Source: Roseobacter sp. MED193 (GTDB lineage Bacteria; Pseudomonadota; Alphaproteobacteria; Rhodobacterales; Rhodobacteraceae). Taken from it: a stretch of 64,000 bases of DNA. Made by a program: the position numbers and the translations under genes. Positions 32,007-38,959 of this stretch are shown piece by piece. Where the stretch lies: NCBI RefSeq assembly GCF_000152965.1, contig NZ_CH902583.1, forward strand, positions 3,725,694 through 3,789,693, given 5' to 3'. The first letter of the stretch is position 1; each line of letters opens with the position of its first letter. The notes beneath the pieces are model-generated. The model had not been told where the DNA came from. It saw only the letters and a program-made list of their open reading frames with translations, and searched no databases.

Positions 32007-32082
<76 letters not shown>

Positions 32083-32162
32083 TACTACCTCATTGATTTC
32101 AAATAAAACCCTGTTTATCAGGGGGTTGCGCCGCCTCAACTAGTACACATAGGCGGGACACA

Positions 32163-33770
32163 ATGAGATACGCGATGCCCAACCCTGAACTGATCGGAAA
32201 GACCTACTACCTGCGAGTCAGGGTTCCCAAAGATGTCGCTGAAGCAGCCCGTGGGACAAAAGTGGCCGTGCCTGTGGGGGATCGGGTTTCTACGGTGAGT
32301 GTCAAAGACGTCGTGAAGGTTTCGCTCCGCACTTCAGATGCTGCCGAAGCAAAGCGGCGGTTTACACATGCGCTGGCGGCAGTTGAGGCACATTGGGCAG
32401 CCCTGAAGAAAGGCCCTGTGGCGCTGAACCACAAGCAGTGCGTTGCGCTTGCTGGCGAGATCAGGCGCGACTGGGTGGCTGCGTTTGACGAAGAGCCGGG
32501 GTCGCCCAGCGGTTGGATGCTGGTGCAAGAACTGGACGCAGATGCAGCGCAGTTGACACAGAACCCTTTCGAACGGCTAGCAGTTCGCGCAGCTGTGAAA
32601 CCGCCAAACTCAAAGGGTCTGGAGGCGAGGTTTGGTGGGTTTGCGGATGTGGTTCTCCGACGGCACGGTTTGATAGTAGACGCAGCGACAAGGGTCCGAC
32701 TTCTGCCGCTCATCGCATCGGCTATGTCTGAAGCTGCCGAAGTGAATCTCAGTAAGTCTCAGGGTGACTACAGCGACAGTGGAGATACCGCGAAGTATCC
32801 AGCGTTTGGGCCAAAACAGACAGCGACGGATGAGCGACAGCGAGACGAAAAGAAGCCGCTGACATTTGGGCGGATAATTGACGAAGAAGAGCGACGGCGG
32901 TCTCTAGGCAGGGATGGCAAGCCGATCCCGCCAACGACAATTCGCAAGTACCGCCTTGCATCGAAAGAGTTCGCAGACTTCCGTGGGGGTGATAATGCCC
33001 GAACGGTCACACCAGAAGACGTGGAAGGCTGGAAGCTGAACATGCTGGAGGAAGGCGAGCTGTCAAACAGCACCATTGCCCAGCGCCTGCAAAACATTAG
33101 TACTGTGATGGAATGGGGGCAACAGCATGAACTTGGTAAGCTGTTTCTGCACTCAAACCCCGTCAACGTGGTCAAGCGCCCAGAGAAGCATGGCGTCCGC
33201 AGTGAAAATCGGACACTCAGGCTGACCGAAGCGCGGGCAATTCTTCGGGCGGCACGGCAGGAAACTAAGCCAACGCTAAGGTGGCTCCCTTGGATGATGG
33301 CGTATTCCGGTGCGCGGGTTGGCGAGGTTGCCCAACTCTGCGCTCAAGACTTCTTTGCAGTAGAGGGGCAATGGTTCTTTGTATTGACGACGAAGGGCCG
33401 AAAGACACTGAAGAACGAGCAAAGCATCAGGAAGGTACCGCTCCATCCAGACCTGATCACAGAGGGGCTTCTTGAGTTTGTGCAAGGGCGGTCCGGTGAC
33501 CCTTCGAGTAAGTTGTTCAAGCGATCTTCCCAGCAAGACTTGTCAGCGTGGGTGCGTGGGACCGTCGGGGTGACACGAGAAGAAGCAGCGCCAAACCACG
33601 GATGGCGACACTTGTTTGAAGACATGGCGCTTGATGCTGAAATGACCGGGGCGGCTAAGCTCTACATCACAGGACGGGCCTCTGGTGGTTCTGCTGATGG
33701 TTACGGCAAGAGCGACGCAATGCTGCCGGGACTGGCGCGAGAGATGCAGAAGATCAGATCGTACCTATGA
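32163..33770 (+). CDS. Tyrosine-type site-specific integrase
   Basis: The 535-residue phage-type integrase has a DUF6538-like N terminus (PELIGKTYYLRVRVPKDVAE), an SAM-like core-binding domain (about 265-340) and a catalytic domain. The visible catalytic residues are Arg in YSGARVGEVAQLC, Lys in TTKGRKTLKNEQSIRKVPLH, His and Arg in NHGWRHLFEDMA, and a tyrosine in SADGYGKSDAM. It presumably recombines the 24-bp core with the tRNA-Val site. It reads away from the tRNA. Confidence 0.95.
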   Translation: MRYAMPNPELIGKTYYLRVRVPKDVAEAARGTKVAVPVGDRVSTVSVKDVVKVSLRTSDAAEAKRRFTHALAAVEAHWAALKKGPVALNHKQCVALAGEIRRDWVAAFDEEPGSPSGWMLVQELDADAAQLTQNPFERLAVRAAVKPPNSKGLEARFGGFADVVLRRHGLIVDAATRVRLLPLIASAMSEAAEVNLSKSQGDYSDSGDTAKYPAFGPKQTATDERQRDEKKPLTFGRIIDEEERRRSLGRDGKPIPPTTIRKYRLASKEFADFRGGDNARTVTPEDVEGWKLNMLEEGELSNSTIAQRLQNISTVMEWGQQHELGKLFLHSNPVNVVKRPEKHGVRSENRTLRLTEARAILRAARQETKPTLRWLPWMMAYSGARVGEVAQLCAQDFFAVEGQWFFVLTTKGRKTLKNEQSIRKVPLHPDLITEGLLEFVQGRSGDPSSKLFKRSSQQDLSAWVRGTVGVTREEAAPNHGWRHLFEDMALDAEMTGAAKLYITGRASGGSADGYGKSDAMLPGLAREMQKIRSYL

Positions 33771-33792
33771 CGGGCAGGCAATGAGGGCAAAA

Positions 33793-34065
33793 ATGGACGA
33801 ACAATCAAAGCAAACCAGCGAATGGGATAAGCCTTGGGTCTTCCGTTCAATAGTGACGTTCCTTGGGCTTTTTGTTTTAGGCATTATGTTGATCAACCGC
33901 TACGAAGACGTACCCACAGATTGGGAACGTTGTGTGGCTGGAGTTGAAGAACAAATACTGTCGAGCGACCTACACACGAAATACACAGAAACCATTAACG
34001 GACGACGCGTTGTCAAAGCAAGCCGAATGATCACCGTCATGCTTGGCTGCGGCGGAGGCAACTGA
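33793..34065 (+). CDS. Small membrane protein of the integrated element
   Basis: The 90-residue protein has one hydrophobic helix (VFRSIVTFLGLFVLGIMLIN) followed by a hydrophilic domain with Cys residues (WERCVAGVEE, MLGCGGGN). The ATG at 33793 has GAGGG upstream; an ATG at 33781 is also in frame. No family is recognised. It lies 22 bp after the integrase stop and touches the next gene. Confidence 0.65.
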   Translation: MDEQSKQTSEWDKPWVFRSIVTFLGLFVLGIMLINRYEDVPTDWERCVAGVEEQILSSDLHTKYTETINGRRVVKASRMITVMLGCGGGN

Positions 34066-34556
34066 ACACCTTCGACTTCAACAGCAACAACATCCGCGTG
34101 ATCGACATCGACGGGGAGCCTTGGTTCGTAGCAACCGATGTGTGCCGCGCCTTGTCGCTACAGATACAGCCAACTGGGAAGGTCAACGTCACCGCTGCAA
34201 CACGGAACTTGGCGGGTGATGAGAGGGGGTTGCTTTCAATACATACCCCTATCCCGACCAAAGAAAGCCACACCACAAAGATGGTCTGCCTATCCGAAGG
34301 CGGTCTCTACAAGCTCATCATGCGCTGCGACAAGGCTGAGGTACATGACTTCCAAGAGTGGGTCACTCGCGTGGTCCTGCCTGCCATTCGCAAGGACGGC
34401 GGCTACGTCATGGGCGAAGAGAAGGTCGTGACTTGTGAGTTGAGCGAGGACGAGCTTGTCGCGAGGGCCATCGCGAGGGGGTTGGGTTCCACCATTAAAT
34501 TGAGTGCCACCATTGAAGATAACCAGCAGGCATTCGGGGTGACGGCCCCGGCGTGA
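34062..34556 (+). CDS. Bro-N domain protein (phage antirepressor-like)
   Basis: The protein carries the Bro-N fold seen in phage and baculovirus regulators: NTFDFNSNNIRVIDIDGEPW, FVATDVCRAL, then CLSEGGLYKLIMRCDK and FQEWVTRVVLPAIRKDGGYV. No ATG or TTG lies in frame before the first strand. The nearest GTG (34098) would cut off that strand, whereas a CTG at 34062, behind GGAGG and overlapping the previous stop, would give the complete domain. I therefore choose CTG. The C terminus is short and lacks a second DNA-binding domain such as KilA-C. Confidence 0.75.
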   Translation: MNTFDFNSNNIRVIDIDGEPWFVATDVCRALSLQIQPTGKVNVTAATRNLAGDERGLLSIHTPIPTKESHTTKMVCLSEGGLYKLIMRCDKAEVHDFQEWVTRVVLPAIRKDGGYVMGEEKVVTCELSEDELVARAIARGLGSTIKLSATIEDNQQAFGVTAPA

Positions 34557-34742
34557 CGCCTCGCTGGTCTCTTCAGCTGGTCCGTGGCTTCTGCTTCGGG
34601 TTCCCGTGGACGAGGTGAGATAGCCTTGGCGGGACCCTGAGGCAGGGCTGCTGCTGTCGCGAAGGTGTGCAGCTACTGGGTGTGCATTCTGCACAGGCGG
34701 GGACTGGCTATTTGGACCCTGAAACTGAAGAGATACCATAAA

Positions 34743-35504
34743 ATGATCAAACAAAAGCAATCGGTTAGCAAGCCGAAAGCAAGACGCATGACGCTAGCCA
34801 ATCTGAGAACCGAACCAGAGACGTTCCAATTCCGGGCATTCGAGACGGAGGAACACCACGTCCAAGACCTCGCAGCGTCCATCAAGGCCGGGAACGAAAT
34901 GGACCCACTGACTGTATGGAAACGGGGTGATGACGATTACGTGGTCCTGAATGGCCACCACAGACACGCGGCGTATGCCCGATGCGATTACCGTAAGCCC
35001 ATCGCGGTCAACGTCTTCGAGTGTAGCGAGGCAGAAGCCAAGCTGATTGCGCTAGAGGAGAGCACCAAGACCAAGCTGCCGATGACGAACGTAGAAAAGC
35101 TGGATGCGGCGTGGCGGTTGGTCTGTACCGACCACGATTACTCGCGGGCGCAACTTGTCAAAAGCACGGGTGCTGGAGACGGCACAATCGCCAAAATGCG
35201 ACGCCACCGTAAGACCCTCGAAGTCGAGGACTTGGAAATCCCAGCATCGTGGTGGTTGGCGCAGCGGCGAGTGAAGGGCTTGGAAAAACAGGAGTGGGAC
35301 AATGACATGCAAGAGCAGATGATCCAGACCAGAGCGAAAGCGCTCGACGACGCAATCGGGCAAGCATTGGGTCGCGCTGGAAAAATACAGTGGGAAGCCG
35401 TTGCCATAGTACTTGAGCGACGACTGAACAAGCAGACGTTGGGTTACGTGATTGATGAGTTGCGCGACGAAGACGAAGAGGACGAGAATAACAGTCCGTT
35501 CTGA
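34743..35504 (+). CDS. ParB/Srx-fold N-terminal domain protein
   Basis: The 253-residue protein has a ParB-like nuclease/CTPase-fold region: HVQDLAASIKAGNEMDPLTV, then VVLNGHHRHAAYARCDYRKP and NVFECSEAEAKLIALEES, where GHHRHAA replaces the GxRR motif. A HTH-like region follows (SRAQLVKSTGAGDGTIAKMR) and an acidic tail. No ParA partner is near, so it is probably a phage-type regulator rather than a segregation protein. Confidence 0.82.
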   Translation: MIKQKQSVSKPKARRMTLANLRTEPETFQFRAFETEEHHVQDLAASIKAGNEMDPLTVWKRGDDDYVVLNGHHRHAAYARCDYRKPIAVNVFECSEAEAKLIALEESTKTKLPMTNVEKLDAAWRLVCTDHDYSRAQLVKSTGAGDGTIAKMRRHRKTLEVEDLEIPASWWLAQRRVKGLEKQEWDNDMQEQMIQTRAKALDDAIGQALGRAGKIQWEAVAIVLERRLNKQTLGYVIDELRDEDEEDENNSPF

Positions 35505-36025
35505 CCCCAGCCCTTTGGGGCACAGAAATCTGAGCGGCTTACCAAATACCGCCCGTATCGCTTTTCTCCCCCGTGGGTGCGGCGAGGGGCGGTGGGGTCC
35601 AAGATCAAAGGGGGGAGGGCGCGGCAGTATGCTACGCCCTTCCACGCGGTCACTGAGTGGCCGAGGTGTCCCGTCAGACTTGGGGAACATGCCCATTGGT
35701 TGCGAATACCTGCAGCCGTCCAGCGCACAGCCCCACCTCACCTTGGACGGGGTCTGGGATGTGTTGTAGTGGCTGCCACGGACACACGTGTTGGATAACG
35801 ATAGTGATGTGGAAGAACAGGAAGGGTATTGTGTAGGTGCGCATGTTGCGAACTCCGATACAGTGTCAGATGCGCAAGGTGCTGATACCTATGCAACTGT
35901 GCTTAGGTAGTCCTTGCTCCAGTTGGTAGCAGTGGCGCGAGTCGAAGACTCTGCGACATCCTGACTCAGGCGTTGGCCCGAAGCCCTTTGTCCGTAGGGG
36001 TATAGGCTAACGTGCGGTCGTGATT
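35505..36025. other. Non-coding stretch of the integrated element
   Basis: I see no convincing gene in about 520 bp. It contains a nine-pair hairpin (GGGAGGGCG at 35612-35620 with CGCCCTTCC at 35634-35642) and a CCCC/GGGG hairpin right after the ParB-like stop. It may hold regulatory RNA or decayed sequence. Confidence 0.5.
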
Positions 36026-36102
36026 GTGTCCGCTGTGGTGTCCGTAAGGGTTGACTTGTGTCATCGTACATCTCTATCAACGTACACAACCCAAACGGAC
36101 AC
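36026..36102 (+). promoter_or_regulatory. Inverted-repeat site upstream of the resolvase (candidate res/operator)
   Basis: GTGTCCGTAAGGGTTG (36038-36053) and CAACCCAAACGGACAC (36087-36102) form an inverted repeat of 16 bases with two mismatches, separated by 33 bases. A further direct GTGTCCG lies at 36026-36032. The right arm ends 11 bp before the resolvase ATG. Serine resolvases bind such arrays as res sites and to repress themselves (inference). Confidence 0.6.
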
Positions 36103-36113
36103 ATGAGGACGCC

Positions 36114-36749
36114 ATGAGCAAGACCATTCTGTACGCACGAGTTTCTACAGCGGACCAAACCCTTGATCACCAGAGAACGCAGGCCGAGGCCGCAGGCTTT
36201 GTGATCGACGAGGTGGTGGCTGACCACGGGGTCTCAGGCGTCAGCACTACGTTGCAGGAACGGCCAGAGGGGAAGCGGCTGTACGACAAGCTGCGCCACG
36301 GGGACACGCTGGTTGTCCGCTGGGTAGACCGTCTGGGCCGCAACTACCAAGACGTCACGGACACAATACGACACTTCATGCGGCAGGGTGTCGTGGTCAA
36401 GACGGTGATTAACGGGCTGACCTTCGACGGGGCAACGCAGGACCCCATGCAGGAAGCCGTGAGAGACGCGCTGATAGCCTTCATGGCCGCGACGGCACAG
36501 GCACAGGCGGAAGCCACCAAAGAGGCCCAGAAGGCTGGCATAGCTGCTGCAAGGGAGGACAGCACCAAGTACCGGGGCAAGAAGCCCAGCTATACCCGGG
36601 AGACGCTGGGTATTGTCGTGGACATGCTAGGTCAAGGTGCTGGTACCACTGAGATTAGCAAGGCCACAGGGCTGACAAGGCAGACAGTTCTAAGAATACG
36701 TCAAAATCCAGTCGCTGCAGACATCGCATTGATAAGATGGGGAACATAA
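36114..36749 (+). CDS. Serine recombinase / resolvase
   Basis: The 211-residue protein starts MSKTILYARVSTADQTLDHQ with the catalytic Ser in YARVSTADQ. The conserved arginines appear in VVRWVDRLGRN. A C-terminal helix-turn-helix of the Hin/resolvase type follows (GTTEISKATGLTRQTVLRIR). It is probably a small-serine resolvase or invertase of the element. An inverted repeat lies in its promoter region. Confidence 0.94.
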   Translation: MSKTILYARVSTADQTLDHQRTQAEAAGFVIDEVVADHGVSGVSTTLQERPEGKRLYDKLRHGDTLVVRWVDRLGRNYQDVTDTIRHFMRQGVVVKTVINGLTFDGATQDPMQEAVRDALIAFMAATAQAQAEATKEAQKAGIAAAREDSTKYRGKKPSYTRETLGIVVDMLGQGAGTTEISKATGLTRQTVLRIRQNPVAADIALIRWGT

Positions 36750-36859
36750 ACAGGGGTGCCTGGACTTGTTCTTTTCGTTAAATTTGTTGCTTTCGTAATT
36801 GAGGTGGTCGTCGGAATGAAACAACCATAGAGTGCTGGGGAGATTTCAAGGAGACAATT

Positions 36860-37915
36860 ATGCAGATTGCTGAGCTTTATGGTTTTTCACGTTGGTTTCA
36901 ATCTGAACTGCGGCAGCTCGTTTCTAAATACAACTCTGTGGCCAAAGTCCTTCAACACAATGCGTCACAACAGCAAAAGCAGCCGTTGGAAGGTCCATTG
37001 GACGACCTTATAAACTACCTTCAAGGCATGGACTTTGATGCTTTGTCCATGCAGCAGGTGGCGCTATTTCCGCTGTTTGACGTGCAGGAGCTAGTTGGCA
37101 AGCAAGGCGTTTCGTTCGTTGAATCTACTATTAGAAAGAGTGACTTTGATCCGGCAACTGCGCACCAAAATGTGACAGATGCCGTGCAGCGGCTTCAATC
37201 AGCAAATCAAAGAGTTGATGCCATCTTGCAGGCATTCGATGGTCTGGACCTTCCACTTGCTGACCCTGAGCTAGAGAAGGGGCGTGTACTGGTTAGAGTT
37301 GAGTTTGCTGGTGAAGCATCGATGCACAATGTGGCCGAATGGAAGTCATGGTCGGCTTCTTGGTACGAGATTGTTCGTGGGGTAGCCATAGCTATCGACG
37401 AAACACCAGAAGAAACACAAGTCATCGGTGCATCGCAAGGCTCCGTAATAATGAAGCTGGCTGCTACTTATGCTTTTACACGAGTTCTGGCTCTAATTTC
37501 GAAATCAATCTCAAGCATTGCGAAGGACTATCTCGAAGTTAGACATTCGATGGAAGATCTCAAAGCGAAGAAGCTCCTCAACAAGAAATCCGAGACCGCT
37601 CTGAAGGCAAATGCTGAAGAAATCAAAACAACGGGCGTCGAGACAATCATGGATGAGCTGAGGCCAATCCTGCCTGACAATGTGTCGGGCGATAAGGAGA
37701 ACGCTTTGAAGATGGCCATTGAGAAGGCGCTCGACTTCCACAACAAGGGCGGCGATGTCGATTTTGTCGCTCCAGATCAACCAGTAGAAGAGGGTGAAGA
37801 CGAAGAGGGCATACCGTACGATGAGATCGCGGAAGTTCGAATAGCAATCGAGGAAGCACGAGCAGTACGGAATGAGTTAATGATGCTGGCTGACCTTAGA
37901 AGCGACGGGGAATAG
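36860..37915 (+). CDS. Unrecognised 351-residue cargo protein
   Basis: I do not recognise this family. The protein is soluble and acidic, mostly helical by pattern, with no signal peptide. A central stretch VIGASQGSVIMKLAATYAFT followed by an amphipathic helix (VLALISKSISSIAKDYLEVR) and a charged helical region (residues 230-270) stands out. The C terminus is strongly acidic (EEGEDEEGIPYDEIAEVRIA). The base composition is clearly more AT-rich than the host genes, which indicates transfer. A ribosome-binding site (aaggagac) lies 8-10 bp before the ATG. Confidence 0.8.
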   Translation: MQIAELYGFSRWFQSELRQLVSKYNSVAKVLQHNASQQQKQPLEGPLDDLINYLQGMDFDALSMQQVALFPLFDVQELVGKQGVSFVESTIRKSDFDPATAHQNVTDAVQRLQSANQRVDAILQAFDGLDLPLADPELEKGRVLVRVEFAGEASMHNVAEWKSWSASWYEIVRGVAIAIDETPEETQVIGASQGSVIMKLAATYAFTRVLALISKSISSIAKDYLEVRHSMEDLKAKKLLNKKSETALKANAEEIKTTGVETIMDELRPILPDNVSGDKENALKMAIEKALDFHNKGGDVDFVAPDQPVEEGEDEEGIPYDEIAEVRIAIEEARAVRNELMMLADLRSDGE

Positions 37916-37932
37916 TAATAGAGTGGAAATGG

Positions 37933-38115
37933 GTGGGCAGAGCTACGATAGTAGTCATGGTAGCGTTTGTTGGCTGTGGTACATCTTGGGTTCGAGCTTT
38001 GAGTGTACCACGTAGCACTAATAAGGTATTGAAATTACACAGGTTCCAGAAAATGAGTTCGAATCCCTTCGTCGAACCCAGGCCATGCGTTAACTGCGGA
38101 ATGGGTGGAATATGA
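37933..38115 (+). CDS. Putative 60-residue lipoprotein
   Basis: A GTG start gives a short peptide with a hydrophobic N terminus and a possible lipobox (VAFVGC near residues 10-15), followed by a basic region and a CVNCG motif. Its stop overlaps the ATG of the next gene (ATGA), which suggests translational coupling. The small size and weak start make the call uncertain. Confidence 0.4.
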   Translation: MGRATIVVMVAFVGCGTSWVRALSVPRSTNKVLKLHRFQKMSSNPFVEPRPCVNCGMGGI

Positions 38116-38435
38116 ATGTGCCGAAACAAGCGTTGCTGGCTGCCGTACTAGTTATCCCTACTACGATTGCAGCCGAAGTTGTCGAGGTCAAATATACCGG
38201 TTTAGTTGACCTATTGGGCTACGAATGTGCAGATACCGCTTCCAGCTTTGTCAATCGGATCTGCTTCAGTCATGAAAAATTGCACTTGGTCGTCCTGCTG
38301 AAATCAACATACTATGCTTACTGTGGTGTCGATCCGCGCATCGCCCAAGATTGGGTCACTTACGGTAGCAAAGGCGTGTTTTACAACCTATACGTCAAAG
38401 GCCGCTTCGATTGCAGGGAGCAACAACTGCCTTGA
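38112..38435 (+). CDS. Exported KTSC-domain protein
   Basis: The 107-residue protein begins with a signal peptide (NVPKQALLAAVLVIPTTIAA). The mature part fits the KTSC domain: YECADTASSFVNRICFS, then TYYAYCGVDPRIAQDWVTYG and SKGVFYNLYVKGRFDC, the pattern typical of YxYxxVP...SKGxxFN..I/VKG. Four or five Cys suggest disulfides. KTSC function is not established. It is the last gene before attR. Confidence 0.78.
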   Translation: MNVPKQALLAAVLVIPTTIAAEVVEVKYTGLVDLLGYECADTASSFVNRICFSHEKLHLVVLLKSTYYAYCGVDPRIAQDWVTYGSKGVFYNLYVKGRFDCREQQLP

Positions 38436-38534
38436 CGCAGTCTGTCAGGCTGGTGCATAGCGTTAGTACACATCAACGCTAGCGGTGCTGATATATGTGT
38501 TTAAAATCAATGGAGTGAGGCGTTGGATGTAGAC

Positions 38535-38558
38535 TTCGAGCCTCTCACGACCCACCAT
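38535..38558 (+). repeat. attR: right 24-bp direct repeat
   Basis: An exact copy of the tRNA-Val 3' end, including CCA, lies here without the rest of a tRNA. The bases on either side differ from those around the left copy, which fixes the repeat at 24 bp. Confidence 0.92.
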
Positions 38559-38959
38559 TCCCCGCCCTAAATATGTACTCGGTTCATCCCTAGGGGTGTT
38601 GGATTTGATGGTGTGGAAACGCATGGCGCCGTATGCGCTGATCCTCTAGAGGTTGCGTTTCTTATGCCGCCAAGCTTCGTTTTTCCTGGGTCTGAATGCT
38701 GACCCCCAGGGCCTTGGTGGTGGCGGGGCCTGGGTTTGGCGAGGTCGCGACCAGAAGGCTTACTCCTTGAGTTTAGCGGCCTTCAGGGGTTTTCAGCCAA
38801 CCAGTTTGAAATTTTGCATTTTTCATAGGTTTTTGTATGGCGTCTTGGGGGGCGAAGACCTGGCGTTTGGCATAGGCATATGTTGCCGCCGTGCGGAGAC
38901 AATGTTAGAATTCGTCAATCCAAATTTGGCAAAACTCCCAATTCCATAGGAGACTAGGC
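38559..38959. other. Intergenic region right of the element
   Basis: This 401-bp host sequence follows attR. A hairpin CCTGGGTC/GACCCCCAGG lies at 38684-38711. A 98-codon open frame in this interval does not look coding. Nothing else is recognised. Confidence 0.5.

Follow-up and report, generated by a model that had tools for sequence, protein, structure and literature searches.

A mini-element integrated in tRNA-Val of Roseobacter sp. MED193 and a family of small tRNA-integrated islands with a ParB-like protein and a resolvase

What is the 6.5-kb insert in a tRNA-Val gene of Roseobacter sp. MED193, and how could it move? We addressed this question in a 64,000-nucleotide stretch of the 4.67-Mb genome (contig NZ_CH902583.1; hereafter the window), for which a reading of the letters alone (the sequence-only reading) had proposed an integrated element that could be a phage satellite or a small mobile island, perhaps with a role in defence. 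By its sequence features the insert is a mobile island: its att sites are exact, its integrase keeps the catalytic positions, a relative has the empty counterpart site, and related elements occur elsewhere. It is probably an integrative mini-element that passes through a circular stage prone to forming multimers and depends on a helper for its movement.

The insert is delimited by an exact 24-bp repeat of the tRNA-Val 3' end, whose two copies lie 6,475 bp apart (Table 1). The repeat extends to 27 bp if one mismatch is allowed, none of 100 shuffles of the window reproduced the match, and the core occurs only twice in the whole genome, even with up to two mismatches. The sequence-only reading had thus been right about the repeat, which it put 6.48 kb away, and right to the base about the element limits at 32060 and 38558, as well as about the tyrosine integrase adjoining the att site. 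This integrase is of the DUF6538 type, keeps the catalytic R, H-x-x-R and Y positions in an uninterrupted frame, and matches Pfam Phage_integrase below the cut-off (0.0067). As read from the DNA, the integrase gene and the att sites mark a precise insertion into tRNA-Val.

We searched the left and right flanks of the insert in 12 genomes of the genus, its own included, and found the empty site that the sequence-only reading had suggested looking for. In one relative (G003), whose left flank DNA is 88% and whose right flanking protein is 96% identical, the two flanks, once joined at the att core, give a single alignment of 2 kb, and the junction reads ...CCCACCA and then TTC, as expected for an empty tRNA-Val site. 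The flanking gene is also near tRNA-Val in G004 and G008 (~0.39 and ~0.14 kb, as the distance between matches) and lies 1.1 kb from it in G002, while in G006, G007 and G011 a tRNA-Asp follows within ~0.6 kb of tRNA-Val. None of seven element proteins was found in the 11 tRNA-Val loci (1.9–19.6 kb each) of 10 other genus genomes; G001 was left out of this site comparison since its match splits over contigs, and the sites of G001, G005 and G009 stay outside the assignment as empty or filled. The same gene order in all relatives with no empty site, which would have spoken against mobility, was not what we found. The locus therefore has all the marks of a tRNA-integrated genomic island, namely an intact tRNA with a displaced 3' fragment, an uninterrupted integrase and an empty site.

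The tRNA-Val site is occupied differently in two other genomes. In G010 (C26; L050 and L051, with tRNA-Val at L051 18806–18881), tRNA-Val leads into a ~36-kb stretch that encodes an integrase, an S24 repressor, a terminase and a capsid protein and ends in a second tRNA-Val fragment; it is probably a prophage using the same site, judging from these genes. In Shimia (L006 9845–15306), a related element occupies this tRNA-Val. Its integrase is split over two frames, and its right end, which matches, has an imperfect att; it carries three unclassified cargo genes, and neither ParB nor a resolvase was found in it.

Seven or eight open reading frames (ORFs) of the element were scanned against Pfam, PHROGs, NCBIfam and PADLOC. 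The mix of phage-type regulators and proteins without known family that the sequence-only reading had described was indeed seen, in the form of a Bro-N antirepressor-like protein, a ParB-like protein, a resolvase and a 351-aa protein. The start of the Bro-N gene is uncertain, its frame being open upstream to at least 34023, and the protein has 162 aa as scanned, compared with 255–480 positions in the best-matching antirepressor profiles. A family profile of the ParB-like protein matches Noc/ParB structures in a profile search, and ParA was absent among the element ORFs. The nearest solved structures to the resolvase are the Tn552 and Tn3/gamma-delta recombinases, and the ~0.6 kb between the ParB-like and resolvase genes holds no convincing gene. 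Capsid, packaging, replication and transfer genes, which the earlier reading had also failed to see, had no credible match in these scans, and neither AlpA nor a primase nor a relaxase was recognised among the scanned ORFs. The sole terminase match, of a PHROG 'terminase small subunit' to the tail of the ParB-like protein, was weak (E 0.036) and was treated as chance. With no match to type IV secretion genes or a relaxase among the same ORFs, the insert does not classify as an integrative and conjugative element (ICE).

Table 1 Features of the tRNA-Val element (window coordinates)
Feature	Position	Strand	Basis
tRNA-Val(tac), integration target, intact	32007..32082	+	ARAGORN; Rfam
attL core, 24 bp (last 23 bases of tRNA-Val and 1 base)	32060..32083	+	exact repeat
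Tyrosine integrase, 535 aa, DUF6538 N-terminal domain	32163..33770	+	Pfam DUF6538 8e-11; PHROG integrase 6.9e-26
Small ORF, 94 aa, hydrophobic stretch by eye, no family	33781..34065	+	one PHROG of unknown function, E 0.086
Bro-N/antirepressor-like protein	34098..34556	+	Pfam Bro-N 1.3e-18; PHROG Ant 9.4e-34 (scanned from 34068)
ParB-like protein, 253 aa, ParB_N and HTH-like part	34743..35504	+	Pfam ParB_N 1.3e-4 (below its cut-off); PHROG ParB-like 4.1e-18
Conserved non-coding block, core AAATCTGAGCGGCTTACC	35502..35611	+	nhmmer
res-like site, half-sites between -125 and -18 before resolvase start	35989..36101	+	alignment and half-site counts
Serine resolvase, 211 aa, Tn3/Tn552 type	36114..36749	+	Pfam Resolvase 3.4e-27
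Cargo: unclassified 351-aa protein	36860..37915	+	no family at credible E-value
Cargo: KTSC-domain protein, 107 aa, signal-peptide-like start by eye	38112..38435	+	Pfam KTSC 3.2e-8
Right end, shared with near-right end of Shimia element at same tRNA	38450..38560	+	74% over 116 aligned columns to L006 15196-15306
attR core, 24 bp	38535..38558	+	exact repeat of tRNA-Val 3' end

The element has relatives at many other tRNAs. A search with the ParB-like protein in 394 genomes of the bacterial family gave 43 rows, of which we followed the 17 at E≤1e-10; these correspond to 17 loci in 14 genomes, two of the loci being in MED193 itself. Within the fetched stretch, 15 of the 17 loci have an integrase and a tRNA and 14 a resolvase, and in 12 the tRNA 3' end recurs exactly over 17–24 bp as an att repeat, whereas shuffled downstream DNA gave a repeat of at least 14 bp once in 280 trials. 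As a control, among short loci from the ParB search a resolvase stood beside 9/13 strong versus 0/16 weak ParB matches. Thirteen elements could be delimited: 12 of the ParB loci plus L125, which was found via its integrase and has a resolvase and no ParB. Left out were L126, L143 and L145, which have an integrase and a tRNA and no exact repeat, and L127 and L148, where no integrase or tRNA was found (L148 is located at the end of a contig). The delimited elements are 4.3–9.2 kb long and target tRNA-Val, Ser(gct), Ser(cga), Cys, Asn, Arg, Leu (three kinds), Ala and Thr. Beyond this bacterial family, L158, from another alphaproteobacterial one, combines an integrase, ParB and a second type of resolvase with a 21-bp att repeat in tRNA-Phe (5,058 bp apart), and a class-wide ParB search at E≤1e-10 gave six of 318 genomes including MED193, with one other strong match.

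In terms of gene content, these comparisons define a family in which most members share the integrase, the ParB-like protein and the resolvase with a res-like site, many add a conserved non-coding block, and the cargo is exchangeable. The tRNA-Val element has all of these parts, with its integrase at a tRNA, and many of its relatives lack one or more. A keyword search of the open-access literature, covering the best matches of longer lists, found no description of a family of ParB-resolvase mini-elements.

MED193 carries a second member of 4,731 bp at a tRNA-Ser. Its ParB is 63% and its resolvase 90% identical to those of the tRNA-Val element, and the resolvase-region DNA is 83% identical, but the two integrases gave no tblastn match at E≤1e-3. 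Since the two members share the core and not the integrase, integrase and core seem to exchange independently. A third copy of the tRNA-Ser end lies 5.2 kb further, and the DNA leading up to it encodes a separate integrase and a second-type resolvase. The locus (L123 2125–12110; C1, about 2.95–2.96 Mb; tRNA-Ser(gct)) thus shows three tRNA-end copies around two small elements, which from this layout are apparently arranged in tandem. RNase H-like genes lie near ParB in three other loci (L141 8696–9214 and L147 10325–10828 by Pfam, L149 8738–9226 by similarity to L141) and may point to a role in replication.

Two non-coding features accompany the genes. The first, a res-like site of ~115 bp, goes with the resolvase in most family members. 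Alignment of ~170 bp upstream of the resolvase gene in 12 loci revealed recurrent TGTCCG/CGGACA-type half-sites, with inward pairs at about -125/-103 and -75/-49 and a same-direction pair at -33/-18 before the gene. Each locus has 2–7 half-sites, a count above all of 300 shuffles in nine of the 12 loci, with distances largely alike; the pattern was written after viewing the alignment, and the counts are a description rather than a test. This layout resembles the res-site plan of the Tn3/Tn552 type. The catalytic domain, the helix-turn-helix and the position of the half-sites directly upstream of the gene are likewise those of Tn3/Tn552-family resolvases. Unlike in that family, no transposase was found in the element, and the resolvase is linked to tRNA integrases and ParB.

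The second feature is the conserved non-coding block of ~90 bp, which directly follows the ParB stop and combines the core AAATCTGAGCGGCTTACC with a C-run/G-run part. An nhmmer model from four elements, searched against 1.29 Mb of fetched sequence in which some loci are duplicated, recovered the block after ParB in three further elements (E 1.2e-4 to 2.3e-4) and also at three loci that have a related integrase and the second resolvase type, and no ParB (E 3.6e-4, 6.1e-4 and 3.5e-3). A second, larger model was built from 10 members and had no match in the reversed database. Independent matches were L124, L130, L126, L007, L009 and L011 with the first model, and L161/L173 (fetched by an 18-mer pattern), L133, L140 and L147 with the second. 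In 13/13 loci that have a resolvase as well, the block precedes it on the same strand, 10 of these loci being model members. When the 18-mer core pattern was searched independently of the elements, it occurred in two of 325 genomes, at the tRNA-Val element and at a locus near tRNA-Thr, where it lies 0.33 kb from an integrase; this set is without some family genomes (e.g., G398), and several of the included genomes have the block and not the exact 18-mer.

A reading of the block as RNA was set aside after it gave no Rfam match, a fold z of -0.73 and no consensus pairs. Because RNA folding was unsupportive, we took the block as a DNA site; an origin, a partition or operator site and a packaging signal are candidates, with an origin seeming most likely. 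We also tried the core as a phage packaging site: it has 11 exact matches in IMG/VR, a number that we guess, without computing it, to be not above expectation for a pattern of this length in a collection of that size. At tRNA-Thr in L011 (9849–12366), a 2.4-kb stretch has 35-bp repeats around a truncated integrase, the block and a resolvase, and is perhaps a minimal or decayed form.

We then considered the cargo, for which the sequence-only reading had raised a defence role. This is supported for the family, in which 6/13 delimited elements have a gene matching a PADLOC model, a family match with predicted function, and not for the tRNA-Val element's own seven scanned genes. By PADLOC, L125 has a type I methylase that lacks its partner, L130 has PDC-S05, L141 has an AriA-like ATPase beside a DUF4435 gene, L142 and L144 have type IIG enzymes, and L147 has PDC-S05 together with an ATPase weakly matching AriA. 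Two loci that are not among the 13 add a type IIG/ISP enzyme (L007) and an HNH gene whose match to type IV is weak (L009). ORFs were scanned selectively for each element, and some that overlap the resolvase on the other strand are probably not genes. L149 carries a GtrA-domain protein with glycosyltransferase-like and methyltransferase-like genes read from sequence starts; the methyltransferase-like protein has a weak PADLOC match (9e-7) and was excluded from the defence count.

By its position, the 351-aa protein is our guess for a defence candidate in the tRNA-Val element. It has relatives in five other genomes of the 394, four near full length (29–36% identity), one of these with an in-frame stop, and one weak. 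Ten genes scanned beside the four near-full-length relatives include several of housekeeping kinds. A more distant relative, encoded on a Photobacterium plasmid, is near R-M genes: it has a C39-peptidase gene on one side and, on the other, genes for an ATPase, an Eco57I-type methylase and a BsuBI/PstI-type endonuclease. A single-sequence structure prediction was mostly helical at low confidence (mean pLDDT 59), and a profile search against solved structures gave two weak matches (best E 0.0093).

How might such an element live? In the reading we prefer, an integrative mini-element with a circular stage, the integrase would excise the element as a circle, whose DNA host or helper functions would multiply or carry as head-to-tail multimers; the non-coding block is a possible starting point. 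The resolvase, acting on its res site, would reduce the multimers to monomers, the ParB-like protein would position the circle or regulate the module, and a monomer would re-integrate at a tRNA. A phage repressor may be the target of the Bro-N protein. The cargo would repay the host, in the family commonly through phage defence, and transfer between cells would be by a helper (phage or conjugative element) or DNA uptake. We infer the multimer stage because a chromosomal island would seem to have no other need of a dedicated resolvase and a site for it. Small defence-carrying islands without visible means of travel are poorly explained, and here the recurrent compact core defines a family; it supplies a DNA signature for finding members and roles that are directly testable, and genes of unknown function beside it, such as that of the 351-aa protein, are places to seek new anti-phage genes.

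Several results weigh against this reading. No replication gene was recognised in the element, which leaves the resolvase as the one pointer to a multimer stage, and such resolvases are widespread on plasmids of many kinds. Among the 17 ParB loci, three have no resolvase, two no integrase or tRNA and five no exact att repeat. The res half-sites do not exceed shuffles in three of the 12 aligned loci. A clear non-coding block is present in eight and absent from nine of the 17 ParB loci, the second 18-mer locus has neither ParB nor a resolvase nor an att repeat, and the block, to which RNA folding lends no support, has been assigned no function. None of the seven scanned genes of the tRNA-Val element matches PADLOC.

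The first alternative is a phage satellite, in which a helper phage would excise and package the element, perhaps as a concatemer that is later resolved, and the block would be the origin or packaging site. We hold this as a tentative, less likely possibility; the sequence-only reading, borne out on the small mobile island by att sites, integrase, empty site and relatives, is supported in part. The element is near in size to the prototype PICMI, whose family is packaged as concatemers (PMC10803314), it has an antirepressor gene of phage type, and its tRNA-Val is in G010 the one preceding the ~36 kb with phage genes, but AlpA, a primase, a capsid-modifying gene and a credible small terminase were not recognised in it. 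The virus collections gave weak, ambiguous traces. IMG/VR scans seeded with the integrase, the ParB-like protein and the 351-aa protein gave no close relative, while the resolvase led to two contigs with 72–74% identity. One, of 48.9 kb and classed as viral (L133 1762–9530), has a tRNA-Val, a distant ParB and a resolvase at 74% with the block 0.26 kb upstream; the two families tested, for terminase and capsid, had no match in it, and it may be a fragment. The other (L134) has a resolvase at 72%, integrase relatives and, ~29 kb away, terminase and capsid genes. IMG/VR contigs may represent provirus predictions that take in adjacent islands, and by their gene content the matches are compatible with islands inside or beside proviruses, without showing packaging. 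The fetched stretches around the 11 core matches in IMG/VR held no integrase, ParB or resolvase. Phage records, where the integrase was not searched as a protein, gave no match to the ParB-like or 351-aa protein and, at the DNA level, short antirepressor matches only.

A narrower form of this idea, which we consider quite unlikely, is a minimal satellite family of Rhodobacterales-type bacteria and relatives that would travel as concatemers in helper particles, with the block as origin or packaging signal and the resolvase and res site trimming the concatemer before integration at the tRNA. If true, resolvase and res would replace the primase/AlpA plan of known satellites. A search for a helper in MED193 itself gave no TerL of PF03354, the sole terminase family tested there. 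Its genome has one HK97-type portal gene (G000 C1 119187–120179), which may belong to a gene transfer agent or a prophage. As a vehicle, gene transfer agent particles hold ~4 kb, too little for most family members.

A mobilisable element with an oriT only, carried by conjugative plasmids or ICEs and keeping the resolvase and ParB as plasmid-like maintenance genes, is an unlikely alternative to which the plasmid collection lends some weight. The closest resolvases there (61–77% identity) are on alphaproteobacterial plasmids, including ones of 9.8 and 12.6 kb with an annotated DUF5906 protein and primase/polymerase, respectively. Among plasmids, pMNOD06 and pMNOD07 of Methylobacterium nodulans have resolvases 72–73% identical to that of the element, split over two frames in pMNOD07, and the DNA similarity extends into the upstream site. 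They differ from the element in having a primase/polymerase (pMNOD06) and a DUF5906 protein (pMNOD07), and in showing no integrase in the PLSDB gene table, which is incomplete. The element's ORFs, however, gave no relaxase match; an oriT was not searched for. Finally, a degraded, immobile remnant of a larger prophage or island is very unlikely. In its favour, integrases are broken in some family loci (split in two frames in L006, truncated in L011) and the Bro-N protein is shorter than its best-matching profiles; against it, integrase, att sites, ParB and resolvase are uninterrupted here and this compact arrangement is found again at many tRNAs across genera.

Among described systems, the PICMI satellites of Vibrionaceae come close: they are ~6 kb, have an integrase at a fixed chromosomal site, few genes and large non-coding regions, and protect against competing phages (PMC10803314). 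However, AlpA and a primase are obligatory parts of the PICMI model, and its prototype lies beside fis, which is optional in that paper's first model (PMC10803314), whereas the site here is tRNA-Val. The tRNA-Val element is not a PICMI in the terms of that model, because AlpA and the primase (DUF3987/DUF5906) were unmatched among its scanned ORFs; the words 'ParB' and 'resolvase' are absent from the main text of PMC10803314. The Pseudomonas tmRNA islands I23, I44 and I55, the last moved by jumbo phages, share a tyrosine integrase, direct repeats, putative phage-defence cargo and the absence of recognised autonomous transfer genes, but range from <20 to >70 kb, use a tmRNA site and carry AlpA, RadC, YqaJ and Gp2-like genes, and section 6 of PMC12595487 names no ParB/resolvase core. 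Like the tRNA islands treated in the Islander account (PMC4383910), the element is an insertion marked by an integrase, with the tRNA restored at one end and a displaced tRNA fragment at the other; what sets the mini-elements apart is that, by their gene content, they form one specific small family with a defined core.

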